64,000 bases of DNA, taken from NCBI RefSeq assembly GCF_011008905.1, contig NZ_JAAIVI010000017.1:1054001-1118000 (forward strand). Direction: 5' to 3'. Numbering within the stretch: the stretch's first letter is position 1; every line of letters begins with the position of its first letter. The notes beneath the pieces were generated by a model. The model saw only the letters and a program-made list of their open reading frames with translations. It searched no databases and was not told the DNA's origin. The DNA is from Wenzhouxiangella sp. XN201 (lineage in GTDB: Bacteria > Pseudomonadota > Gammaproteobacteria > Xanthomonadales > Wenzhouxiangellaceae). Positions 2,919-27,897 of the stretch are shown piece after piece. Made by a program: the position numbers and the translations under genes.

Positions 2919-4157
2919 ATGAGCGAGCGCGAATTCGATGTTGTCCTGATGGGAGCTACCGGCTTTACCGGGCGTCTCGTGGCTGAACATCTGCTGCGTC
3001 GGCACGGCGCGAATGGTGGCTTGCGCTGGGCCCTGGCCGGGCGCAGCCGGGAACGGCTCGAACAGATCCGCCACGGCCTGGGCGAGTCGGCCGCCGACCT
3101 GCCGCTGATCGTCGCCGACAGTCATGATCGGGAGTCGCTCGACGCCATGGTGAAGCGAACCCGAGTGGTCTGCACCACGGTCGGACCTTATGCCCTGCAC
3201 GGATCGGACCTGGTGGCGGCCTGCGCCGCATCGGGTACCGACTACTGCGATCTCTCCGGCGAAGTGCCCTGGATGCGCCGGATGCTCGACGAACATGCCG
3301 AGGCCGCACACGAAAGCGGCGCGCGCATCGTGCATTGCTGCGGTTTCGACTCAATTCCCTCGGACATGGGCGTGTGGTTTCTGCAGAAGCAGGCCCGGGA
3401 GCGTTTTGGCGGTCCGCTGGAGCGCGTACGGATGCGGGTCAAGGCGGCCAAGGGCGGCCTGAGCGGCGGCACTTATGCCTCGATGCTCAATATCGTCGAG
3501 CAGGCGCGTCGCGACAAGGATATCGCTCGTATCCTCAAGAACCCCTATGCCCTGTGCCCACCCGACGCGCGCAAGGGCGAGCGCCAGCCCTACGTGTCAT
3601 CGGCTGATTACGACGCGGTCTTCGGGGTGTGGACTGCGCCGTTCATCATGGCTGCCATCAATACGCGCGTGGTGCTGAAGGCCAACGCGTTGTCCGGGTT
3701 CGCCTATGGCCGGGAGTTTCGTTACGACGAGGCCGTTATGACCGGTCGCGGCTTCTCCGGTCGCATGAAGGCCATTTCCGTTTCCCTGGCCATGGGCGCT
3801 TTCGCCCTGGGCTCGGCGTTGGGTCCGACCCGGGCACTACTGAAGAAGATCGCGCTGCCGAAGCCGGGCGAGGGGCCTTCGCCCGAACAGCGCGAGGCCG
3901 GATTCTTCAAGATCGTGATCGACGGGCGCAATGAGGGCGACGACCGGTCGCTGCGTGTGTCGGTCAGCGGCGACCGAGATCCCGGCTACGGCTCGACTTC
4001 GAAGATGATCGGCGAAACGGCCGTCGCCCTGGCGCGCGATTTGTCCCCCGAGGATTGTCCAGGTGGGATCTGGACGCCTTCGACGGCGCTCGGTGAGCGG
4101 TTGCTTGATCGGCTGCAGCAACACGCTGGTCTGAAGTTTGAGGTAGTCGACGCCTGA
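2919..4157 (+). CDS. Saccharopine dehydrogenase-like (trans-acting enoyl reductase family) protein
   Basis: A 412-residue protein with an N-terminal Rossmann fold: VLMGATGFTGRLVAEHLL at about residues 9-26 gives the GxTGFTG nucleotide-binding loop, followed by ALAGRSRERLEQI. The middle has TVGPYALHGSDLVAACAASGTDYCDLSGE and HCCGFDSIPSDMG, hallmarks of the saccharopine-dehydrogenase-like or trans-acting enoyl reductase family. These proteins probably act as NAD(P)-dependent reductases on lipid substrates, but the substrate here cannot be read. It starts 51 bp after nadC on the same strand and may be read through, although the functions are unrelated. The following 0.8 kb is repeat copy A. Confidence 0.85.
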   Translation: MSEREFDVVLMGATGFTGRLVAEHLLRRHGANGGLRWALAGRSRERLEQIRHGLGESAADLPLIVADSHDRESLDAMVKRTRVVCTTVGPYALHGSDLVAACAASGTDYCDLSGEVPWMRRMLDEHAEAAHESGARIVHCCGFDSIPSDMGVWFLQKQARERFGGPLERVRMRVKAAKGGLSGGTYASMLNIVEQARRDKDIARILKNPYALCPPDARKGERQPYVSSADYDAVFGVWTAPFIMAAINTRVVLKANALSGFAYGREFRYDEAVMTGRGFSGRMKAISVSLAMGAFALGSALGPTRALLKKIALPKPGEGPSPEQREAGFFKIVIDGRNEGDDRSLRVSVSGDRDPGYGSTSKMIGETAVALARDLSPEDCPGGIWTPSTALGERLLDRLQQHAGLKFEVVDA

Positions 4158-4170
4158 GGGTGGTGGTTTG

Positions 4171-4957
4171 GTTGTTGGCACTGGACGCAGTGGCGGCTTC
4201 GACACTTCAAAGGCGGTTCATCAATTGCTCTGCCGCGGGCTTGTGCGTTGCTACCACCGGGTTCGGCGGCTTCGACAAGTCAAAGGCGGTTTCGCCCGGC
4301 TGCTTCGCAGGCGCTGGATTGGCTGACGCCGCTCGTCGCGGCGCGGGCCTCGACAAGTCAACTTCTGTTTCGCCCGGCTTGCTTCGCAAGCTCTTTGGGC
4401 GAGGTACTTTTGTCGCTTGCAACAAAAGTACCCAAAAGTGCGCTTACAAGACGCGGTTGTGCCGCAAGACCAGTTGGCTTCAGGGCTTAACGGAGATACC
4501 GCTTCTGCCTTCGCTAATGCTCGGTCGTGAAACATGGCGTTTTCGATAAACGCCTGGCGTAGCCCGCACCCAGAAAGGACGACCTCGATCGGGGCCGGCT
4601 TCGATTGAGGGGGGACAAGCGCTCAGGGTGGTACGCCACTCGAAGTCGCGGTGCCAGATGCGGGCCGCACCAAGTGTTGTCGCAAGCCAGCATGTTCGGC
4701 AGCCGGGCCCAAGCAAAGCCCCAGTCACAGTCCGTGAAGCCACTCCGCTCAGATATTCCTGAGACGTAACCGTCATCTTTTAAGCGCATTTTTTGGGTAC
4801 TTTTTTGGCGCGACAAAAAAGTACCTCGCCGCAAGAGCGCGCGAAGCGCGCCGGGCGAAACCGCCATTGACTTGTCGGGGCCCGCCAACCCGGCGGTAGC
4901 CACACACTTCCCAGCGGCAGAGCAGTTGATGAAACAGCCTGCGCAGCAGGCGGGCGG
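4171..4957 (-). repeat. Composite inverted-repeat element, copy A (reverse orientation)
   Basis: Copy A fills the gap between two convergent genes. Its core runs from a hairpin at 4796-4825 (stem GGTACTTTTTT / AAAAAAGTACC) to one at 4403-4432 (GGTACTTTTGT / ACAAAAGTACC), 423 bp, in the orientation opposite to copies B-D. Outside the core, units of about 65-75 bp carrying CGACAAGTCAAAGGCGG and CGCCCGGC followed by a short GC-rich hairpin point inward from both sides: three at 4171-4400 and about two at 4840-4957. Bases 4681-4860 match copy C (10458-10637) with one visible difference. Small open frames inside are by-products, because copies differ by single-base indels. Confidence 0.9.
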
Positions 4958-4978
4958 CCCCGCCTCAGATTGGGCCGG

Positions 4979-6031
4979 TCAGCCTTCCTTCAAACTCTTC
5001 ATGTCGATAACAAACCGGTAACGTACGTCGCCCCGCTGCATGCGCTCGTAGGCTTCGTTGATGTTCTTGATGTCGAGCATCTCGATATCGCACTCGATGC
5101 CGTGTTCGGCACAGAAGTCCAGGCATTCCTGCGTTTCGGGCAGGCCGCCGATCAGCGATCCGGCCAGGGCTCGGCGTCCGAAGATCAATGGGCCGGCATC
5201 GAGCGGCGGGTCAATCGGTTCGGGCATGCCTACGAGGATATGGATGCCGTCGTGCTTGAGGGTAGCGATATAGGGGTTGAGGTCGTGTGCCACCGGAACG
5301 GTATCGAGCAGGAAGTCAAAGTGTCCGACTGCGGCCGCCATCTGTTCGTCGTCGGTCGAGACGATGACCTGGTGGGCGCCCTGGCGCTTCCCTTCTGCTG
5401 CCTTGTCGCTGGAGCGGGTGAAGAGGGTGACTTCCGCGCCCAGCGCCCGGGCGAGCTTCACGCCCATGTGCCCGAGCCCGCCCATGCCGATCACACCAAC
5501 GCGGTGTCCCTCGCCGACGCCGAAGTGCTTGAGCGGCGAATAGGTGGTAATTCCGGCGCAAAGCAGTGGCGCAGCAGCGGCCGGGTCCAGCGCATCTGGA
5601 ACTTGGACAACGAAGCGGTCGCTGACGACGATAGCTTCGGAGTAGCCGCCGTAGGTCTTGCTTCCATCGTGAAGGTCCTGTCCGTTGTATGTCAGCACAT
5701 TGCCGCCGGTGCAGTACTGTTCCAGGCCTTCCTCGCAAGCATGGCACTTGCGACATGAGTCGACCAGGCAACCGACGCCGACCCGGTCGCCCACCGCGAA
5801 TTGCTTCACGTCTTCGCCCACAGCCGTGACCCGACCGATAATTTCGTGGCCGGGCACCACCGGGTAGTCGGTCATCCCCCAGTCGTTGTGCACGAAGTGC
5901 AGGTCAGTGTGACAGATCCCGCAGTAGTCGATTTCGATCCGGACGTCGTCCGGACGGAGGTCGCGGCGCTCGATTTCGAGCGGGGCCACGCCGGATGTGT
6001 CCGATTCTGCGCCGTAGGCTCGTGTTGACAT
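4979..6031 (-). CDS. Zinc-dependent NAD(P) alcohol dehydrogenase (YahK/CAD-type)
   Basis: Medium-chain dehydrogenase of 350 residues that interconverts aldehydes and alcohols. Catalytic zinc ligands appear in DYCGICHTDLHF (Cys near 37) and PVVPGHEIIG. The structural zinc loop is CRKCHACEEGLEQYC near residues 94-108. The cofactor fold is IGMGGLGHMGVKLARALGAE near residue 185, followed by TRSSDK, which suggests NADPH preference as in YahK-type aldehyde reductases. The spacing of YNGQDLHDGSKTYGGYSE is typical of the cinnamyl-alcohol/YahK branch. No strong ribosome-binding site precedes the ATG at 6031. Repeat copy A lies just beyond its stop and copy B begins about 50 bp upstream of its start, so its promoter lies within or against the repeat. 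Confidence 0.93.
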   Translation of the reverse strand: MSTRAYGAESDTSGVAPLEIERRDLRPDDVRIEIDYCGICHTDLHFVHNDWGMTDYPVVPGHEIIGRVTAVGEDVKQFAVGDRVGVGCLVDSCRKCHACEEGLEQYCTGGNVLTYNGQDLHDGSKTYGGYSEAIVVSDRFVVQVPDALDPAAAAPLLCAGITTYSPLKHFGVGEGHRVGVIGMGGLGHMGVKLARALGAEVTLFTRSSDKAAEGKRQGAHQVIVSTDDEQMAAAVGHFDFLLDTVPVAHDLNPYIATLKHDGIHILVGMPEPIDPPLDAGPLIFGRRALAGSLIGGLPETQECLDFCAEHGIECDIEMLDIKNINEAYERMQRGDVRYRFVIDMKSLKEG

Positions 6032-6084
6032 GGTGGGGTCCCGATTATTTGACTAGGATGTTGATCATAACGCTGAAATGGTGA

Positions 6085-6827
6085 GCCTGCTGTGCAGGCT
6101 GGTGTATCAATTCCTGTGCCATTGGATTGGCTGATGCCACCGGCCGCTGTACGAGCCTCGACACGTCAAAGGCGGTTTCGCCCGGCGCGCTTCGCGCGCT
6201 CTTGCGGCGAGGTACTTTTTTGTCGCGCCAAAAAAAGTACCCAAAAAATGCGCTTAGAAGATGACGGTTGCGTCTCAGTAATACCTGGTCGGAGTGGCTT
6301 CACGAACTGTGACTGGGGCTTTGATGTTGCCCGGCTGCCGAACATGCTGGCTCACGACTATGCTTGGCGCGGCCCGCATCTGGCTCAACGACTTCGAGTG
6401 TCGTCCCACGCCAGGGGCTCGTCCCACCCTTAATCGAAGCTGACCCCGATCGAGGTCGTGCTGTTCTGGTGCGGGCTACACCAAGCTTTTATCGAAAACG
6501 CCATGTTTCACGACCGAGCGTTAGCGATGGCAAGAGCAGTATCTCCGTTAAGCCCTGAAGCCTTCTGGTCCTGCGGAACAACCGCGTCTTCTAAGAGCGT
6601 TTTTGGTGACTTTTGTCGCGATTGACAAAAGTTACTCGCCCAAAGAGCTTGCGAAGCAAGCCGGGCGAAACAGAAGTTGACTTGTCGAGGCCCCCACAGC
6701 GACCCGTGGCATCAGCCAATCCTGTGCTCGCGAAGCAAGCCGGGCGAAACCGCCTTTGAAGTGTCGAGGCCCGCGCCGCGACCCGTGGCGTCAGCCAATC
6801 CCGTGTCTGCGAAACAGGCCGGGCGAA
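6085..6827 (+). repeat. Composite inverted-repeat element, copy B
   Basis: The core runs from the left hairpin at 6211 (GGTACTTTTTT stem) to the right hairpin ending at 6635 (GACAAAAGTTAC arm), 425 bp. On the left are one full unit and part of another, beginning with the hairpin GCCTGCTGTGCAGGC. On the right are two full inverted units and a truncated third, each with GCGAAGCAAGCCGGGCG or a variant, then CGACAAGTC or CGACACTTC read in reverse, then a GACCCGTGGC-TCAGCCAAT tail. The element ends exactly at the stop codon of the next (minus-strand) gene. No transposase gene and no clear target-site duplication is visible. Confidence 0.9.
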
Positions 6828-8411
6828 TCAATCCCATCGATCGGACCGGGCAGTTCGCCACGAATCACCAAATGGCCCCTGGCCGTTGGTTTCATCGAGC
6901 AACTGGCCTGGCTCGAGGAAATTGTAGAGATCGGCGAAGGTTGAAACGTTCAGTTCGGTGGCTCGGCGGTAGATATGGTGCGGTCGGATCTCGTCGGTGT
7001 GACTCAGGCCCATGGCCGAGAGCATCTTGATCAGGCTCTCGATGGTCTTGCGGTGGTAGCGGGCCACGCGCGGTGCCTTGTCGTCGACCACCAGTCCACG
7101 CACCAGGGACGGGTTCTGGGTGGTGACACCGGTCGGGCAGGTGTTGTTGTTGCAACTCAGCGACTGGATGCAGCCCAGGGCGAACATCATCCCGCGCGCA
7201 CTGTTGCAGCCGTCGGCACCGAGTGCGAGGGCGCGGATCATGTGAAAGGCACTCAGGATCTTGCCGCTGCAGAAGATCTTGATATCGTCGCGCAAGCCGG
7301 TGCCCGTGAGAATGTCATGTACGGTCACGATCGCGTCGCGCTTGGGCATGCCAAGGGAGTTGGTGAATTCCAGCGGTGCGGCACCGGTGCCGCCCTCGCC
7401 GCCGTCAACGGTGATGAAATCGGGGCGGATTCCGGTATCGAGCATCGCGCGACACATGGCCATGAAGTCGCTGATACGACCCATGCAGAACTTGATGCCG
7501 ACCGGCTTGCCGCCGGACAGATCACGCAGCTGACCGATAAATTCCATCAGCTCACTGGGCGTGGAAAAGGCGCTGTGGGCTGCCGGAGAAATACAGGCCT
7601 CGCCCGCTGGAACTTCACGCGCCTCGGCGATCTCCCGGCTCACCTTGGGGCCGGGCAGAATGCCGCCGGCGCCGGGCTTGGCGCCTTGCGAGAGTTTCAG
7701 TTCGATCATCCGGACGGTCTCGCCGGTTGCCGTTTCGCCGAACCGTTCGGGATTGAATCGGCCCTCGGGCGTGCGGCATCCGAAGTAGCCCGATCCGATT
7801 TGCCAGATCAGGTCACCGCCGCCTTCGAGGTGGTAGCGCGAAACACCCCCTTCCCCGGTGTTGTGTGCGAAGCCGCCTTCGGCCGCCCCCCGGTTAAGCG
7901 CCATGATGGCGTTCTTCGACAGCGAGCCGAAGCTCATCGCCGAGACGTTGAGCAGTGATGATGAATAGGGCTTGCCACAGTCCTTGCCGCCGATGTCGAT
8001 GCGCGGTTCCTCCTCCAGCAAGGGAGCCGGCGTGGTCACATGGGCGGCCCACTCATAGCCGGGTCGGTAGACATCGCGCTGGGTACCGAAGGGCTTGGTT
8101 TCGAGTTCGCCCTTGGCGCGTTGATAGATCAGCGCCCGGTATTCGCGTTCGACCGGATAGGCATCGAGATTGCTTTCGATCAGGTACTGCTGGATTTCCG
8201 GTCGGAAGTGTTCGATCAAGTAGCGGAAATGTCCGATGATGGGAAAATTCCGCAACACGGTGTGCTTGGTCTGCATGGCGTCGCGAAGCCCCAGCGCCAG
8301 CAGCGGAACGATGATCAGTTGCAGGTACCAGGCCGGTGACCAGGCCATGCCGACCAGGCCGACAACCGCGAAGCCGATCAGCAGGAATACGAATACCGAT
8401 TGTCTTGCCAT
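6828..8411 (-). CDS. Membrane-anchored FMN-binding glutamate synthase-like oxidoreductase
   Basis: A 527-residue stand-alone version of the GltB synthase domain. Two membrane helices (residues about 5-22 and 29-45) precede a cytoplasmic barrel. FMN-site features include LNVSAMSFGSLS, GEGGVSRYH, GQLRDLSGGKPVGIKF and VDGGEGGTGAAP. CIQSLSCNNNTCPTGVTTQ near residue 420 matches the cysteine spacing of the 3Fe-4S centre in GltB. It lacks the glutaminase domain, so ammonia-dependent glutamate formation is not assured and the physiological reaction of these short paralogues is uncertain. The C-terminus (TARSDRWD) looks natural, although the stop abuts repeat copy B. It is divergent from efpL across 190 bp. 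Confidence 0.9.
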   Translation of the reverse strand: MARQSVFVFLLIGFAVVGLVGMAWSPAWYLQLIIVPLLALGLRDAMQTKHTVLRNFPIIGHFRYLIEHFRPEIQQYLIESNLDAYPVEREYRALIYQRAKGELETKPFGTQRDVYRPGYEWAAHVTTPAPLLEEEPRIDIGGKDCGKPYSSSLLNVSAMSFGSLSKNAIMALNRGAAEGGFAHNTGEGGVSRYHLEGGGDLIWQIGSGYFGCRTPEGRFNPERFGETATGETVRMIELKLSQGAKPGAGGILPGPKVSREIAEAREVPAGEACISPAAHSAFSTPSELMEFIGQLRDLSGGKPVGIKFCMGRISDFMAMCRAMLDTGIRPDFITVDGGEGGTGAAPLEFTNSLGMPKRDAIVTVHDILTGTGLRDDIKIFCSGKILSAFHMIRALALGADGCNSARGMMFALGCIQSLSCNNNTCPTGVTTQNPSLVRGLVVDDKAPRVARYHRKTIESLIKMLSAMGLSHTDEIRPHHIYRRATELNVSTFADLYNFLEPGQLLDETNGQGPFGDSWRTARSDRWD

Positions 8412-8601
8412 GGGCGAAGCCTAGCCCGAATCAGGGGTGATTTGAAGTCCCCGGTTTCAGAAGCTCGCCTCGATCCGGGCGTGAACGAAACGACCGTTGA
8501 TGCCGATTGGACTGATCGAGTCGACCCAGGGAACCAAAGTGCGCGCCGACCGGTGGCAGATGCAGTATGCTTTGCGCCGATTCAATCGCGATGGAGACAG
8601 C

Positions 8602-9168
8602 ATGCCCAGGGTTAGTGAAATCAAGCGCGGCCAGGTGATCGAGCACGACGGCAAGGTGTTTGGCGTTCGGCAGATCGATCGTTCGGCGCCGACCGCCCGA
8701 GGTGGCGGCACGCTCTACCGCTTCAAACTGGAATCCATTCCGGGCGGGGACCGCAAGGAGGTTACGCTCAAGGGCGACGACATGCTCAAGGATGCCGACC
8801 TGGTACGACGCCAGTGCGAGTTCTCCTATCGCGACGGCAACCAGTTCGTTTTCATGGACAGCGAGGACTTCAGCCAGTATCTGATCGATGCCGATGTCAT
8901 CGGTGACGGTGCCGGGTACATCACAGATGGCCTGCAGGGCATCTACGTGATGATCATCGACGACACGCCCGTTGCCATCCAGTTGCCGCAATCGGTGGTG
9001 CTGGAGGTCAGCGATACCGCCCCGGTGATGAAGGGCGCGACGGCCACAAAATCGAATAAGCCGGCGAGCCTGGAGACCGGGTTGGAGATCCTGGTTCCCG
9101 ACTACATCACGCCCGGCGAGACCGTACGCGTCAACACCGAAACCGGCGAATTCATGGGCCGCGCCTGA
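8602..9168 (+). CDS. efpL: Elongation factor P-like protein EfpL (YeiP)
   Basis: A 188-residue paralogue of EF-P that helps ribosomes through difficult peptide-bond steps. The start at 8602 is set by GGAG eight bases upstream; the longer open frame to 8497 lacks such support. Domain I has IKRGQVIEHDGKVFGVRQID, and the beta-turn tip reads APTARGGGTLYRF. Arginine thus stands where EF-P carries its modified lysine, which is the hallmark of the YeiP/EfpL branch. Downstream blocks such as VTLKGDDMLKDADL, FVFMDSEDFSQY, LPQSVVLEV and NKPASLETGLEILVPDYITPG (split across domains II and III) match YeiP. tyrA begins three bases after the stop, so the two are probably cotranscribed. Confidence 0.93.
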   Translation: MPRVSEIKRGQVIEHDGKVFGVRQIDRSAPTARGGGTLYRFKLESIPGGDRKEVTLKGDDMLKDADLVRRQCEFSYRDGNQFVFMDSEDFSQYLIDADVIGDGAGYITDGLQGIYVMIIDDTPVAIQLPQSVVLEVSDTAPVMKGATATKSNKPASLETGLEILVPDYITPGETVRVNTETGEFMGRA

Positions 9169-9171
9169 GCC

Positions 9172-10281
9172 ATGGAACAAGGTGAATGGAAGGCACGACT
9201 CAAGGCGTTGCGGGACGAGCTTGATGGTGTCGATACGGCGCTGATCGAGCTGGCAACACGGCGCCAGCAGCTGGTTTCCGATATCGGACGCATCAAGAAG
9301 CGGTACGGCGAGCAGTTGCGTGACTTCCGGCGCGAACGCGAAGTGCTCGATGGCGTACGCCGCGCGGCCGAGTCCCGGGGTCTGGATCCCGAACTGGCCG
9401 AGGATCTGTTCCAGCGCCTGATTGAGGCTTCTTTGACTCGCCAGGAGCAGGAGCGGCTGCGCCTTGGGCGTCACGGTGATGGTCGACGAGCATTGGTGAT
9501 CGGTGGCTCTGGTCGCATGGGCCGTTGGTTGGCCGCTTTCCTCGACGGCCAGGGTTTCGATGTGCTGATTGCCGATCCTGCCACGACATCGGATGGAAGT
9601 TCGCGCTTCACCGATTGGCGCGATGCCCCGGCCGACGTGGACGTCATCGCCATCGCCGCACCCCTTGCGATATCGGCCGAGGTGCTGGCCGAGCTCGCAC
9701 AGCAATCGACGGATGCGCTGGTCTTCGATATCGGATCACTCAAATCGCCGTTGGGTCCGGCCCTGCGCGCTGCTGCCGATGCCGGGCTGCGGGTGTGTTC
9801 GGTGCACCCCATGTTCGGTCCCGACACGCAGCTGCTTTCGGAAAAGCATGTTCTCCTGATGGACGTCGGCAACGCCGAGGCTGTCGTTGCCGCGAAGTCC
9901 CTTTTTGCCGACACCCTGGCTGAACTGGTCACAATCGGGCTCGAAGAACACGACCGGCTTATGGCGCCGGTGCTGGGTTTATCCCACGCGTTGAGCATCG
10001 TCTTCTTCACCGCCCTGGCAGATTGCGGGGTGTCGGCCACGGGCCTGTCGCAGCTGTCGAGCACCACCTTCGATCGGCAATTGTCCATTGCGCGGGCCGT
10101 GGCCTGCGAAAACCCCGATCTCTACTTTGAAATCCAGTCCCTCAACCGCCATGGCGGTACCATGCGCCAGGCGTTGCTCGCGGCCGTTCAGTTGTTGATC
10201 GAGAGTATCGAGAACGATGATTCCGAGGCATTTCGGCAGTTGATGGCGCGGGGCAAAGCGTATCTTTCCGATTTGAAGTAG
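9172..10281 (+). CDS. tyrA: Bifunctional chorismate mutase / prephenate dehydrogenase (T-protein)
   Basis: Catalyses chorismate to prephenate and then prephenate to 4-hydroxyphenylpyruvate in tyrosine synthesis. Residues about 1-95 are an AroQ-type mutase helical domain (LRDELDGVDTALIELATRRQQLVSDIGRIKK, in pieces the usual R, K and Q contacts). LVIGGSGRMGRWLAAFLDGQG near residue 107 begins the NAD-binding dehydrogenase domain, and SVHPMFGPDTQLLSEKHVL and the C-terminal LNRHGGTMRQALL belong to the same domain. At 369 residues it has the usual T-protein length. It follows efpL by three bases. Repeat copy C starts about 30 bp after the stop. Confidence 0.95.
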   Translation: MEQGEWKARLKALRDELDGVDTALIELATRRQQLVSDIGRIKKRYGEQLRDFRREREVLDGVRRAAESRGLDPELAEDLFQRLIEASLTRQEQERLRLGRHGDGRRALVIGGSGRMGRWLAAFLDGQGFDVLIADPATTSDGSSRFTDWRDAPADVDVIAIAAPLAISAEVLAELAQQSTDALVFDIGSLKSPLGPALRAAADAGLRVCSVHPMFGPDTQLLSEKHVLLMDVGNAEAVVAAKSLFADTLAELVTIGLEEHDRLMAPVLGLSHALSIVFFTALADCGVSATGLSQLSSTTFDRQLSIARAVACENPDLYFEIQSLNRHGGTMRQALLAAVQLLIESIENDDSEAFRQLMARGKAYLSDLK

Positions 10282-10309
10282 GTTGAGGTTACAAGTTCGT
10301 TGCCGCTAG

Positions 10310-11140
10310 ATTGACTGTTGCCACTGGTCGCAGTGGTGTACTCGACACTTCAAAGGCGATTACGCCCGTCTGCTTCGCAGATTGGTTCGTCAACTCGCTG
10401 ATGCTAGCTAGTGTGATGCTACCGCCGCGGTCGGTGGTCTCGACAAGTCAAAGGCGGTTTCGCCCGGCGCGCTTCGCGCGCTCTTGCGGCGAGGTGCTTT
10501 TTTGTCGCGCCAAAAAAGTACCCAAAAAATGCGCTTAAAAGATGACGGTTACGTCTCAGGAATATCTGAGCGGAGTGGCTTCACGGACTGTGACTGGGGC
10601 TTTGCTTGGGCCCGGCTGCCGAACATGCTGGCTTGCGATACCGCCTGGCGCGGCCCGCATCTGGCACTGCGACTTCGAGTGGCGTTCCAGCCCTGAGATC
10701 TGTCCCAACCTTAATCGAAGCCGACCCCGATCGAGGCCGTGCTGTGTGGGTGCGGGCTACGCCCGAGCTTTACCGAAAACGCCATGTTTCACGACCGAGC
10801 ATTAGCGAAGGCAAAAGCGGTATCTCCGTTAAGCCTCCGAGACTTCTGGTCCTGCGGACCACCCGCGTCTTCTAAGAGCGTTTTTGGTGACTTTTGTCGC
10901 GACTGACAAAAGTTACTCGCCATCAGCCTGCGAAGCACGCGGGCGAAATCGCTTTTGATTTGTCGGGCCCCCCACGACAACCCGTGGCAATAGCCAGCGC
11001 CGTGCCTGCACAGCAGGCGGCGAATCCGCCTTTGACTTGTCGAGGACACCACCGCGCCCGGCGGCAACAATTGTGCAAGGGCCACCCGGCCAACAAGTCT
11101 AAGCGCAAGCACCTGCCAAGTATGCCGGGCGCAATCTCGG
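10310..11140 (+). repeat. Composite inverted-repeat element, copy C
   Basis: The core runs from the left hairpin at 10493-10522 (GGTGCTTTTTT / AAAAAAGTACC) to the right hairpin at 10887-10916 (GTGACTTTTGTC / GACAAAAGTTAC), 424 bp. The left arm 10441-10545 and the reverse complement of 10863-10967 align over about 100 bp, so the ends form a long imperfect terminal inverted repeat with a hairpin nested in each arm. Degenerate units continue outward on both sides; the right-hand ones, after 10990, are the most decayed. The element occupies the whole gap between the convergent tyrA and the PHA-type gene. Confidence 0.9.
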
Positions 11141-11161
11141 CCGTCAGAGATGCTACCCGAC

Positions 11162-11434
11162 CTACTGAAAGTGCTCATCCAAATAACGATTGATTTCCTT
11201 CTCGACGGCTGGCTGCAGGTAGGTAAACAGAAAGTTGAGCCGGGCCCGTACGTGAACGCATTCTTCGTCAACGTCGATTTCGCCGTGAACGCCGGGCCGC
11301 TCGAAAACGATCGTGTCTTCATCCCAGCCATATTCGATGCTGAATTTCTCGGCCAGGTCGGCAGCCAGTTCATCGGCGACTTGCTGCGCATCTTCGAGGC
11401 TCATGCTATGGGTCTTTCGAATGTCGATACTCAT
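11162..11434 (-). CDS. Polyhydroxyalkanoic acid system family protein
   Basis: A 90-residue cytoplasmic protein beginning MSIDIRKTHSMSLEDAQ and containing LAADLAEKFSIEYGWDEDTIVFERPGV in pieces, then GEIDVDEECVHVRARL and a C-terminal helix ending EKEINRYLDEHF. This is the pattern of the short PHA-system family (PHA granule region proteins), whose role is not well defined. It starts nine bases after the stop of the receiver-GGDEF-EAL gene, so it looks like the last gene of that signalling operon. No phasin or PHA synthase is nearby, so a link to polyester storage is only a family association. Confidence 0.75.
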   Translation of the reverse strand: MSIDIRKTHSMSLEDAQQVADELAADLAEKFSIEYGWDEDTIVFERPGVHGEIDVDEECVHVRARLNFLFTYLQPAVEKEINRYLDEHFQ

Positions 11435-24548: not shown

Positions 24549-25298
24549 TGGGTTCATTTCTTTGCTGCCGCTGGGTTGTGCGTTATTGCCGCCAGGTTGG
24601 CTGATGCCACGGGTCGCTGTGGTGGCTTCGACACTTCAAAGGCGGTTTCGCCCGGCTTGCTTCGCAAGTGCTGCGTCTACACTGGATTGGCTGTTGCCAC
24701 GGGTCGCTGTGCGAGCCTCGACAAGTCAACTTCTGTTCCGCCCGCCTGCTACGCAGGCTGATGGCGGGTAACTTTTTTCCCGCGCGAAAAAAGTAACCAA
24801 AAAGCGCGCTTAAAAGCAGGCGGTTACGTCTCAAGATTCTTTGAGCGGAGTGGCTTCACGGACTGTGACTGGGGCTTTGCTTGGGCCCGGCTGCGGAACA
24901 TGCTGGCTTGCGATGACGCCTGCAGCGGCCCGCATCTGGCACCACGACTTCGAGTGGCGTACCACCTCCGGTCTCTGTTCCATCATTTATCGAAGCCGAC
25001 CCCGATCGAGGTCGTGCTGTGTGGGTGTGGGCTACGCCCGGACTTTATCGAAAACACCATGCTTGACGACCGAGTGATCGCGAAGGCAGAAGCGGTATCT
25101 CCGTTAAGCCCTGAAGTTACCAGGTCCTGCGGCACAACCGCGTCTTCTAAGAGCGTTTTTGGTGACTTTTGTCGCGACTGACAAAAGTTACTCGCCCAAA
25201 GAGCTTGCGAAGCAAGCCGGGCGAAACCGCCTTTGACTTGTCGAAGCCGCCAACCTAGCGGTTAGCAATACACAACCCAGTGACAGCAAAACCACGAG
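24549..25298 (+). repeat. Composite inverted-repeat element, copy D
   Basis: The core extends from 24767 (left hairpin arm GGTAACTTTTTT) to 25191 (right hairpin arm GACAAAAGTTAC), 425 bp. On the left are two complete units and an outer arm beginning TTTGCTGCCGCTGGG; on the right one unit is followed by the inverted outer arm ending CCCAGTGACAGCAAAA. The outer arms therefore also match each other in inverted orientation, giving terminal repeats well over 100 bp. A unit hairpin here is GCCTGCTACGCAGGC, where other copies have GCGCGC or CTTGC stems. The element fills the space upstream of the amidohydrolase pair and ends at the arfB stop codon. Confidence 0.9.
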
Positions 25299-25716: not shown

Positions 25717-25957
25717 GTCGCCATGGTAACTCCCCAGTTTGTCGTCGCGGCCCCGAGCCGGAATCTCGCCAATGGCGGAAGCGAATGTCGCTCTATCGAA
25801 GCTGCCAGGAGGCATCCTCGTGCAGCTGGCAACGGGCACATCAAGGCCAGGGGCGGTAGGCTTTTGCTGAGAGTCTTGGGTTGGTAGCATCTCACGAAGG
25901 AATGAACTGAAGCTGTAATCCTGCACGCAAGAGTGACTTTGTCAGGAGGGAGGCAAC

Positions 25958-26359
25958 ATGGATAACGCAACTCAAATTTTCATTGTGGGCGGAATGATTG
26001 TTCTGTCATTCGGTTTCCTGCTGGGCATTCCAATGGCCGTGACGCGCAGCCGGTCTCCGAGGGCGCCCCGGTACCTGTTTGCGGCACATCTGGCAGCGAT
26101 AATACAGGGCGCGTTACTGTTGGCGATGACGGTCGCAATTGGTTTTTCGGACTTGTCGCCTGGTGTCGAGACAGTAGCGGCGACTCTTTTGTTGAGTGGC
26201 ATTGTTTTGTTCGACCTCGGTATGGTCATAAACTGGCTACAGGGCGTGGAAGATGCTTTTTCAGAGAAGTCGCTTGGTAACAAGGTGTCATCGATAGGAA
26301 CGCCCTTCGTGCTTATCGGTACTGGAATTGTGCTTTTCGGGGTCATTGCGGCGATTTAG
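25958..26359 (+). CDS. Small four-helix membrane protein of unknown function
   Basis: A 133-residue protein preceded by an excellent ribosome-binding site (AGGAGGGAGG). Four hydrophobic segments at about 5-26, 44-64, 72-92 and 113-131 suggest an inner-membrane protein; RSRSPRAPR between helices 1 and 2 gives a positive cytoplasmic loop. I do not recognise the family. Base composition looks less GC-rich than in the neighbouring metabolic genes, as it also does in the acetyltransferase gene that follows, which may indicate more recent acquisition of this small block. Confidence 0.75.
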   Translation: MDNATQIFIVGGMIVLSFGFLLGIPMAVTRSRSPRAPRYLFAAHLAAIIQGALLLAMTVAIGFSDLSPGVETVAATLLLSGIVLFDLGMVINWLQGVEDAFSEKSLGNKVSSIGTPFVLIGTGIVLFGVIAAI

Positions 26360-26411
26360 CTCTGTGATGAGCGACTCGCCGTCGGCGTTATGGCTTGCAG
26401 AGGGAGTCGTT

Positions 26412-26852
26412 GTGTCACGTGGATTGGTGTTCAGAGAGGCGCTGCTATCCGATATTCCCAGGATTATGGAGATTCGATTTCTGGTGACGGAGAATGAACT
26501 CTCGGATCCTTCGAAGGTGACCGCCGAGATGTGCGAGCAATATCATGGCCCCCTGGGGCGCGGCTGGGTCTGTGAGGTGCAAGGGCAGGTGGTGGGCTTT
26601 TCTTACGCGGCGAAGATGGATTCTTCCATATGGGCGCTATTCGTGCTGCCGGCATTCGAGGGCCAGGGTATAGGAAGGGGGCTCCTAAATCTCGCAACCA
26701 ATTGGTTGTTCTCCTTGGGGAATGAGGAGGTGTCATTGCTGACCATGGTGAATACGCGGGCGGACCGGTTCTATGCTGCTCAAGGATGGGAAAGGGATGG
26801 TATGAAGAGTGAGACTGAAGTTTGCTACCGGCTCCAAAGGCAGACTTTATAG
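26412..26852 (+). CDS. GNAT family N-acetyltransferase
   Basis: A 146-residue cytoplasmic acyltransferase. I prefer the GTG at 26412, which follows AGAGGGAG by about six bases and starts the product just before the conserved LVFREALLSDIPRIMEIR; an in-frame ATG at 26367 would add 15 residues. Motif A, which binds acetyl-CoA, is visible as ALFVLPAFEGQGIGRGLL near residues 76-93, with FYAAQGWERDG as the usual late motif. The acceptor is unknown. The stop codon lies inside the 17-bp palindrome that precedes the next operon. Confidence 0.85.
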   Translation: MSRGLVFREALLSDIPRIMEIRFLVTENELSDPSKVTAEMCEQYHGPLGRGWVCEVQGQVVGFSYAAKMDSSIWALFVLPAFEGQGIGRGLLNLATNWLFSLGNEEVSLLTMVNTRADRFYAAQGWERDGMKSETEVCYRLQRQTL

Positions 26853-26860
26853 TATAAAGT
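26844..26860. promoter_or_regulatory. Perfect 17-bp palindrome, likely operator
   Basis: ACTTTATA-G-TATAAAGT is a perfect palindrome two bases upstream of the -35 box of the following promoter. Its position fits repression or activation of the membrane protein/winged-helix/UppS operon, most simply by the winged-helix protein encoded there. It overlaps the stop codon of the acetyltransferase gene. Confidence 0.7.
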
Positions 26861-26862
26861 AC

Positions 26863-26891
26863 TTGACATAACTCTAAGCCCCGGCTATATA
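26863..26891 (+). promoter_or_regulatory. Near-consensus sigma-70 promoter giving a leaderless transcript
   Basis: TTGACA (26863-26868), a 17-bp spacer and TATATA (26886-26891). Transcription would begin about seven bases on, essentially at the ATG at 26898, so no room is left for a ribosome-binding site and the mRNA should be leaderless. Confidence 0.75.
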
Positions 26892-26897
26892 GTGCCC

Positions 26898-27509
26898 ATG
26901 AACATGTCACTTCGCCGTGATTCGACAAAGTCGCCCGTTGCGCTGCACGATCGCGCCATGGACGACTTGCGCTTCATCCGAGACACCATGGAGCGGGCGG
27001 GGGCGTTCACGGCGGTGCCGGGTTGGGGTGGGGTCGCAATCGGCGTGACAGGCGGGGTTGCGGCGCTGTTGGCTTCCTGGCAGACGACGCCTGAGCGCTG
27101 GCTGTCTGTCTGGCTGGTGACTGCGGCCTTCGCCAGCCTGATCGCGGCGGGCACGCTGTATTGGAAGGCGAAGCGAGCCGGTGTGCCTTTGCGCACGGGG
27201 CCGGGACGCAAATTTCTGCTTAGTTTCCTTCCGCCGGTGGCTGCGGCCGTGGCCCTGACGGCGGCGTTATATGCTCACGGCACGCTCGAGCTGCTACCGG
27301 GTCTATGGCTGCTGTCCTACGGCGCTGCGGTGACCACTGCCGGGACCTTCTCGGTCCGTGCGGTGCCGCTGATGGGCATCGGTTTCATGGTGCTGGGCGC
27401 GCTTGCGCTGGCGACCCCGGCGGCGTGGGCCAACGGCTGGCTGGCGGCCGGGTTCGGGGGACTGCATATCGGGTTTGGGCTGTTGATTGCGAGGCGGCAT
27501 GGTGGCTAA
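26898..27509 (+). CDS. Membrane protein of unknown function, first gene of a winged-helix/UppS operon
   Basis: A 203-residue protein with a short cytoplasmic N-terminus (ALHDRAMDDLRFIRDTMERAGAF, in pieces, looks helical) and about six hydrophobic segments from residue 38 onward, ending LLIARRHGG. I do not recognise a named family, but similar proteins beside winged-helix regulators are usually called hypothetical membrane proteins. Start choice: ATG at 26898, where the promoter spacing predicts leaderless initiation; ATG at 26904 and GTG at 26892 are alternatives. It overlaps the regulator gene by 11 bases, so the two should be expressed together, probably under autoregulation by that protein. 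Confidence 0.78.
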   Translation: MNMSLRRDSTKSPVALHDRAMDDLRFIRDTMERAGAFTAVPGWGGVAIGVTGGVAALLASWQTTPERWLSVWLVTAAFASLIAAGTLYWKAKRAGVPLRTGPGRKFLLSFLPPVAAAVALTAALYAHGTLELLPGLWLLSYGAAVTTAGTFSVRAVPLMGIGFMVLGALALATPAAWANGWLAAGFGGLHIGFGLLIARRHGG

Positions 27510-27897
27510 GGGCCAGTCAGCCAAACACACAGCAGTGCACGAGCAAGAAGGCGACACCTGCGCGACGCCAGCGCGGCGCAGCAAGGGCATAGCTCGGAGC
27601 ATTCCGGTGCAGTTCAACCGCGTCATTCACGAGCGAGTGCGGCTGGCCATCGTCAGTGTGCTGGCCGGCGCGGAATCGATGAGTTTCAACGACCTCAAGC
27701 GCCTCCTCGACATCACCGACGGCAATCTGAGCGTACACGCCCGGCGTCTCGAAGAGGCGGGCTTCGTTACCTGCGAAAAATCGTTTGTCGGCCGCGTGCC
27801 GCATACCGAGTACCGGCTCACGAAGGCCGGACGCAAAGCGCTGAACGAATATCTCGACCATATGGAATCGTTGATCAGTCGGGTGCGTAAGGGCTGA
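27499..27897 (+). CDS. Winged-helix transcriptional regulator (HTH_27-like)
   Basis: A 132-residue DNA-binding protein. After a basic, poorly conserved N-terminus (about 1-32), the domain reads FNRVIHERVRLAIVSVL, SFNDLKRLLDITDGNLSVHARRLEEAGFV in pieces, GRVPHTEYRLTKAGRKAL and a C-terminal helix (YLDHMESLISRV) that probably dimerises. The TDGNLSVH recognition helix is characteristic of the winged-helix family modelled as HTH_27. The start at 27499 has GAGG upstream and overlaps the preceding gene. The likely target is the 17-bp palindrome in front of the operon. Confidence 0.88.
   Translation: MVAKGQSAKHTAVHEQEGDTCATPARRSKGIARSIPVQFNRVIHERVRLAIVSVLAGAESMSFNDLKRLLDITDGNLSVHARRLEEAGFVTCEKSFVGRVPHTEYRLTKAGRKALNEYLDHMESLISRVRKG

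Follow-up and report, generated by a model that had tools for sequence, protein, structure and literature searches.

Very long quasi-palindromic intergenic repeats in Wenzhouxiangella sp. XN201: partly shared sites, species-specific cores and recombination between copies

What are the four large and related elements that fill whole intergenic gaps in a 64,000-nucleotide stretch of the genome of Wenzhouxiangella sp. XN201 (C17:1054001-1118000, here called the window), and why are their sequences so alike? The genome is a draft of 22 contigs (3.13 Mb, 97.9% complete). A first-pass annotation, made from the letters of this DNA, had described the elements, here designated A to D, as a four-copy family in which A is inverted relative to the others, and had considered two readings for them, a non-autonomous mobile element and a structured chromosomal site. 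All four are real and related (Table 1): their cores measure 525-529 bp and share pairwise identities of 82-89%, and the core of A indeed lies on the strand opposite to those of B-D. A 300-nt stretch recurs in three copies (77% and 81% identity to the reference), and there are inverted matches of up to 314 nt, both beyond chance. Read from the outside in, an element consists of outer units, which are repeats of the outer part of the arm and vary between copies, a loosely conserved edge, the arm, an A-run, the motif GCGCTT or a similar one, and two half-cores, which are nearly symmetrical. The arm, about 105 bp long, holds two hairpins, a nested one and another that in many copies has the form GGTACTTTT.../...AAAAGTACC. 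Taking the whole XN201 family, the word [C/G]T[A/G]G stands 37 bp outside a CGAC anchor at 34 of the 55 ends, and plain CTAG is present 30-55 bp outside this anchor at 15 of the 55.

Table 1. Elements A-D and their parts; positions are those of the window, and the strand of an element is that of its core
Feature	Position	Strand	Structure	Flanking genes
Element A	4171..4957	(-)	core 4351-4877; outer units included in span	convergent: saccharopine-dehydrogenase-like gene and zinc alcohol dehydrogenase gene
Candidate gene-conversion tract A/C	4681..4860	(-)	matches C from 10458 at 179/180	
Element B	6085..6827	(+)	core 6159-6687	two minus-strand genes: alcohol dehydrogenase, glutamate synthase
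Element C	10310..11140	(+)	core 10441-10967	convergent: chorismate mutase/prephenate dehydrogenase gene and PHA_gran_rgn protein gene
Left outer units of C	10310..10440	(+)	partial repeats of the outer part of the arm	
Left arm of C	10441..10545	(+)	nested hairpin, hairpin GGTGCTTTTTTG...CAAAAAAGTACC, A-run, GCGCTT	
Right arm of C	10863..10967	(-)	inverted copy of the arm	
Element D (locus L018)	24549..25298	(+)	core 24719-25243	two minus-strand genes: amidohydrolase, RF-1 domain protein

The core of C is a quasi-palindrome: aligned to its reverse complement, it shows 62% identity over 558 columns. Set against 50 letter shuffles each, the palindromy of A-D reaches z values of 12.7-17.5, and of 3.2-5.0 when the arms are taken away; the predicted fold of C is mainly one long hairpin on each strand (z -7.07 and -6.60). 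No codon-position signal is present in the core, by which a protein-coding core is ruled out and the element has to be regarded as non-coding, and a codon-score gene finder called no gene inside any of the 29 XN201 cores. A search of the window with Rfam 15 at the gathering score yielded a tRNA as the sole match, so that the elements belong to no known structured RNA family in that collection. Plasmid or phage origin was ruled out as well, no match being found in either collection. The seven genes flanking A-D carry ordinary Pfam domains, none of them that of a transposase, as the first-pass annotation had stated.

How many such elements does the genome hold? An 831-bp query gave 116 matches in the XN201 genome, clustering at about 30 places; the loci L001-L030 amount to 29 separate copies, as L030 covers the surroundings of L016 again. 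An arm covariance model, built on 33 arms hand-chosen from XN201 and related copies, found at least 70 matches (150 of 2294 candidates scored), which divide into 27 inverted pairs, 8 strong unpaired arms and 8 weak outer matches. Start-to-start spacing within the 27 pairs is 420-427 bp, with one pair at 537 bp. With 27 arm pairs and 8 single arms the description as a four-copy family does not stand; the family is far larger, with about 30 copies in XN201. Six of the eight unpaired arms lie at most about 330 bp from a contig end (the starts of C13, C17, C18, C19 and C21 and the end of C15), the remaining two being a half element inside C19 and one arm on C13. All six contigs, C13, C15, C17, C18, C19 and C21, begin or finish in or near an element, and it is because of the element that the draft assembly breaks there. 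At L020 (G000:C21:44017-47601) an element is followed by a run of N and then by an apparent partial second copy, probably reflecting an assembly gap.

The observation that the elements fill their gaps extends to the whole family. Both flanking genes were called at 28 of the 29 XN201 loci (L029 is cut by a contig end), and the gaps at these loci measure 609-1159 bp; in the window, by comparison, 35 of the 46 gaps separating called genes are shorter than 250 bp. Genes were called with a home-made finder, which misses some genes; it is silent in 25717-27606 of the window, yet tandem open frames of 133, 174 and 205 aa are found there, the second of them acetyltransferase-like by eye, which points either to a weakness of the finder or to genes with unusual codon use. 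Fourteen of the 28 loci lie between convergent genes and five between divergent ones, and at nine tandem loci (L002, L003, L007, L009, L010, L018, L019, L020 and L027; the gene call at L009 is doubtful) both genes run opposite to the core strand, none being found with both genes on the core strand. In the related genome G017, where both genes were called at 18 of 20 loci, nine are convergent, five and three are tandem in the one and the other sense, and one is divergent. Convergent neighbours make up 10 of the 46 pairs in the window, element sites included, and the enrichment over this rate is significant in XN201 (binomial p 0.0009) as well as in G017 (p 0.008). The one-orientation rule at tandem sites, which holds for 9/9 loci in XN201, was not repeated in G017 (5/8), and no conclusion on a fixed core orientation with respect to transcription was drawn.

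Such a preference for the meeting points of genes would be expected if the elements were functional structures of gene 3′ ends, acting as a bidirectional terminator, as an mRNA 3′-end stabiliser or as a transcription insulator between convergent genes, with their spread as a by-product. The very stable fold predicted for both strands would agree with such a role, as would the short palindromes or terminator-like hairpins seen in relatives at A, L004, L005, L014 and L017 (by eye, with no control) and the maintenance of pairing in the arms considered below. We hold this reading to be unlikely, given that a consensus scan of 4100-11200 found 8 terminator-like sites, no enrichment over shuffles (mean 6.7, sd 2.1), that XN201 retains a separate terminator-like hairpin beside the element at L026 and L014, that five of its 28 sites are divergent, and that no Rfam family was matched. 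As to the arms, 711 of the 720 cells of the modelled pairs in the 33-arm alignment are Watson-Crick (G.T 2, A.C 1), the structure and the pairs having been derived from this same alignment, and 10 of the 22 modelled pairs are seen as more than one Watson-Crick type. The arm hairpins keep pairing while the letters change, which fits selection at the level of DNA or RNA alike. Pairing as strict as this fits DNA-level pairing and would, along with the enrichment between convergent genes, be compatible with a putative chromosomal binding or pairing site, be it for gyrase or a nucleoid protein or as a supercoil sink at convergent genes; this appears highly improbable, as the sites are not conserved across the genus and as column 58/84, outside the model, holds 13 A.C or C.A and 4 A.A combinations beside 16 standard pairs (n=33).

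Comparison with relatives gives a mixed picture of occupied and empty sites. Site A is empty in G011, where about 47 bp with a terminator-like hairpin separate the aligned stretches, and in G017, where about 83 bp do so. Site B is occupied in both G011 and G017, each with its own core, site C is occupied in these two and empty in G003 and G117, and at site D no element was found in G011 and G117. At least one relative is without the element at 11 of the 13 XN201 sites examined (A, C, L002, L004, L005, L014, L017, L018, L021, L026 and L028); the other two could not be judged as empty, since the neighbour gene of B has moved in G003 and the left gene of L008 was not located in the stretches fetched. 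It should be noted that the empty site at L014 depends on a weak left-gene match (43% in G117, 62% in G003) and that at L002 and D emptiness is judged from gaps of 210-575 bp in which no arm was matched, not from a tiny gap. Other relatives carry an element at L017 and L021, or show arms there where a contig ends; at L026 G003 shows a hairpin with an A-rich tail resembling the ends of G017 copies, a remnant that hints at layered growth. These comparisons support insertion or loss at some time. The empty sites that the first-pass annotation had proposed to look for thus exist, but inspection by eye showed no target-site duplication where occupied and empty sites were compared, the junctions there having decayed.

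Presence and absence at orthologous gene pairs fit the non-autonomous mobile element that had been proposed; a RAYT partner encoded in the genome, suggested along with it, finds no support. The transposase search of the genomes covered the Y1_Tnp (PF01797) family, which was not found in the 97.9% complete draft of XN201 (5 of 14 controls positive), nor in the element-rich G017 (85% complete), nor in G003 and G010 (75% complete), both with arms. Y1_Tnp was found in G011, an element-bearing genome, and likewise in G018 and G019, both negative with the arm model; as its presence does not track arms or elements across the genomes, there is no link between them, and mobilisation by RAYT is not supported. 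An autonomous partner with the same ends was not found in the 22-contig draft either, none of the 27 XN201 arm pairs (420-537 bp; 150 of 2294 candidates scored) enclosing a gene.

The family is neither confined to four copies nor placed at conserved positions in all relatives, yet 11 of the 20 G017 loci fetched have genes of an XN201 locus on both sides (two nearest genes considered), and two further loci have one side clearly in common; the chance expectation is about 0.22 for an assumed number of 2600 equally likely gaps. The cores behave differently from the sites. Mean inner-core identity is 0.859 within XN201 (325 pairs) and 0.880 within G017 (120 pairs), and between the two genomes it is 0.754 for 10 orthologous pairs and 0.752 for 406 other pairs, values near the random baseline of a lenient aligner, as shuffles of one pair give 0.739. 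Orthologous pairs being no more alike than others, the site tells nothing about the core sequence. Seven of the 11 shared sites have their elements in the same orientation in both genomes and four have them flipped; the G017 orientation is mapped on one weak block (56 bp at 80%; scores of 24.4 for the same sense, 10.2 for the flipped one and 3.6 for shuffles), and the picture is mixed under either mapping. Judged by an identity of 63-67% over nearly full length in the better orientation (four copies), the G011 core is clearly homologous to that of XN201, and of the four sites that can be judged, B and L026 agree with XN201 in orientation, L024 and L020 being flipped.

G017 copies also carry outer layers and A-rich tails that were not seen on XN201 copies. 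Many of the G017 ends (L082-L101) have A-rich tails of a repeated AACGAAAG/AACCAAAA type, which adjoin GATGCCGAACC and a GGTCCCGGATC...CCGGGAC hairpin. In L112 (G011:C38) a short palindromic repeat of the GTAGGATGCGT...ACGCATCCTAC type lies at 1738-1812 near the core centre, possibly a nested insertion into the palindrome, and a similar word is found beside the element at about 1410 in L094 (G017:C98).

What keeps the copies of one genome alike? Among 26 XN201 copies, those also used for the inner-core identities, with 108 biallelic sites (L027 and L029 (partial), the N-interrupted L020, and L030, which repeats the L016 neighbourhood, were left out), incompatible pairs of sites make up 0.34 of all pairs within 10 bp and 0.62 of those more than 240 bp apart, and not one in 1000 permutations of the site order gave so low a value at short range. 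This supports that the XN201 copies recombine with one another, and thereby lends weight to the earlier wording that the copies are young or homogenised. The match of about 180 bp between A and C, reported with a single difference, was confirmed: after reverse complementing A, 179 of 180 positions are identical in these two elements, which are inverted to each other and 6 kb apart, and outside this patch 287 of 343 core positions agree (by subtraction from the whole-core 466/523). The patch is a candidate for a gene-conversion-like tract, which would be expected from conversion between quasi-palindromes but falls short of proof. In G059, a further genome of the order, copy c agrees with copy d at 87% over its first half when d is inverted; its second half fits d best in direct sense (74%), a pattern which hints at half-unit exchange.

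Could the same data have arisen from a MITE- or REPIN-like element moved in trans, with its transposase elsewhere or lost? Insertion bursts, often into older palindromic copies, would then have given nested layers and random orientation, and there is a precedent in REP palindromes, which are targets of IS elements (PMC1525189). Such a history would suit the element-free sites in relatives, the inverted terminal arms, the constant spacing of the [C/G]T[A/G]G word from the CGAC anchor at 34 of the 55 XN201 ends, the nested layers of G017 and the lone outer-layer-like remnant at one site in G003. Nevertheless, we find it rather doubtful in view of the geneless arm pairs, of Y1_Tnp, the family searched, not being found in XN201 or G017, of a target-site duplication not seen by eye at the decayed junctions and of the recombination signal between copies; moreover, only if old copies were the target would bursts in two species favour shared gene pairs.

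The explanation to which we lean, if only slightly, is that the elements are dispersed, non-coding and very long quasi-palindromic repeats, old insertions whose copies would have been homogenised and flipped by ectopic gene conversion. It is from the shared sites, the species-specific cores, the flips and the mosaic copies taken together that we infer this conversion. Founding copies would have landed mostly at gene 3′ ends through an insertion event, and later the copies would have been held together mainly by ectopic gene conversion. Near-mirror arms would let conversion, or recombination between arms, act in either orientation, and such mirror-image arms would explain how cores flip between species while the sites stay put. 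The elements probably persist since the 3′ ends of genes tolerate them, and a secondary use of the hairpins at these ends is possible. Several points speak against this ectopic conversion account. The gene finder on which the description of the sites depends misses genes, and the account does not cover the single orientation at the nine tandem sites of XN201. The comparison of XN201 and G017 cores lies close to its random baseline, and the core centre is the least alike part among XN201 copies (0.65). In addition, outer layers such as the G017 copies carry are hard to obtain on every copy by conversion alone, and re-colonisation of old sites could fit them better.

BIMEs often lie at the 3′ ends of genes and bind gyrase, IHF or Pol I, and typical MITEs are shorter than the elements described here. 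The present family is of a REPIN/BIME/MITE-like kind and as such known in type. REPINs are REP doublets, extragenic and predicted to fold as one hairpin (PMC3116915), and the elements resemble them in being non-coding and extragenic, with inverted hairpin-bearing ends around a spacer and a one-hairpin fold (27 pairs; z -7.07 for C). They differ from REPINs in arms of about 105 bp, a unit of at least 527 bp, copies numbering in tens, a RAYT that was not found in XN201, and a core that is itself palindromic and species-specific. REPs, which measure 20-40 bp and bear a terminal GTAG or CGTC tag on one side (PMC3733652), are much shorter than the arms, and the end word found here is [C/G]T[A/G]G. 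With BIMEs, mosaics of palindromic modules in alternating orientation (PMC2817692), the family has such modules and their alternation in common, but its modules are far larger and layered round a long core, and no REP-type tag was recognised at the hairpin foot. Like MITEs and other small bacterial repeats, which are non-coding and intergenic with inverted ends and no transposase of their own (PMC2229807), the elements share all these properties and are present or absent at orthologous sites; unlike them, they are quasi-palindromic over their whole length and their copies exchange sequence; a target-site duplication was not seen by eye at the decayed junctions. Searches of the open-access full-text literature listed no description of this repeat family, and the main text of PMC7691419 does not contain the terms 'intergenic', 'transposase' or 'mobile element'.

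How widely the family is distributed depends on the probe. Of 398 genomes in the order, 23 were matched by the nucleotide query, largely in the arms and several of them weakly, and the arm model found matches in at least 47 of 299 genomes (13 candidates scored per genome, strict filters). An exact scan for the end sequence in genome contigs, a narrow search that may leave out XN201 where the arm model is broad, returned Wenzhouxiangella sp. 15190 alone, with 7 contigs. From 19 further stretches, twelve elements were read, belonging to G059, G122, G085, G072 and G092 and chosen for two close inverted arm matches; 11 of the 12 are self-complementary over most of their length (60-72%), and G122_c is so in its ends and a middle block only. 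Cores are alike inside each genome, and between genomes some share the arms alone and others longer weak matches, so that the architecture seems to predate the sequence of the core. A wider claim, that these are members of an undescribed class of giant imperfect palindromes spread through the order, whose sequence and orientation would be kept by palindrome-mediated ectopic recombination and not by transposition, is put forward here as a tentative possibility.

Long palindromes are regarded as unstable in bacteria. In spite of this, about 30 quasi-palindromes of half a kilobase each are carried per genome at partly shared sites, with sequences alike within the genome. If the account by ectopic conversion is true, any copy can overwrite any other in either direction, leaving old sites with species-specific sequences and perhaps shuffled halves, and dispersed non-coding bacterial DNA would evolve in concert with the palindrome as the engine. 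Arms of like architecture occur in other genera too, which suggests a broad and unstudied class of repeats, and the family offers a natural system for measuring ectopic gene conversion and inversion in bacteria.
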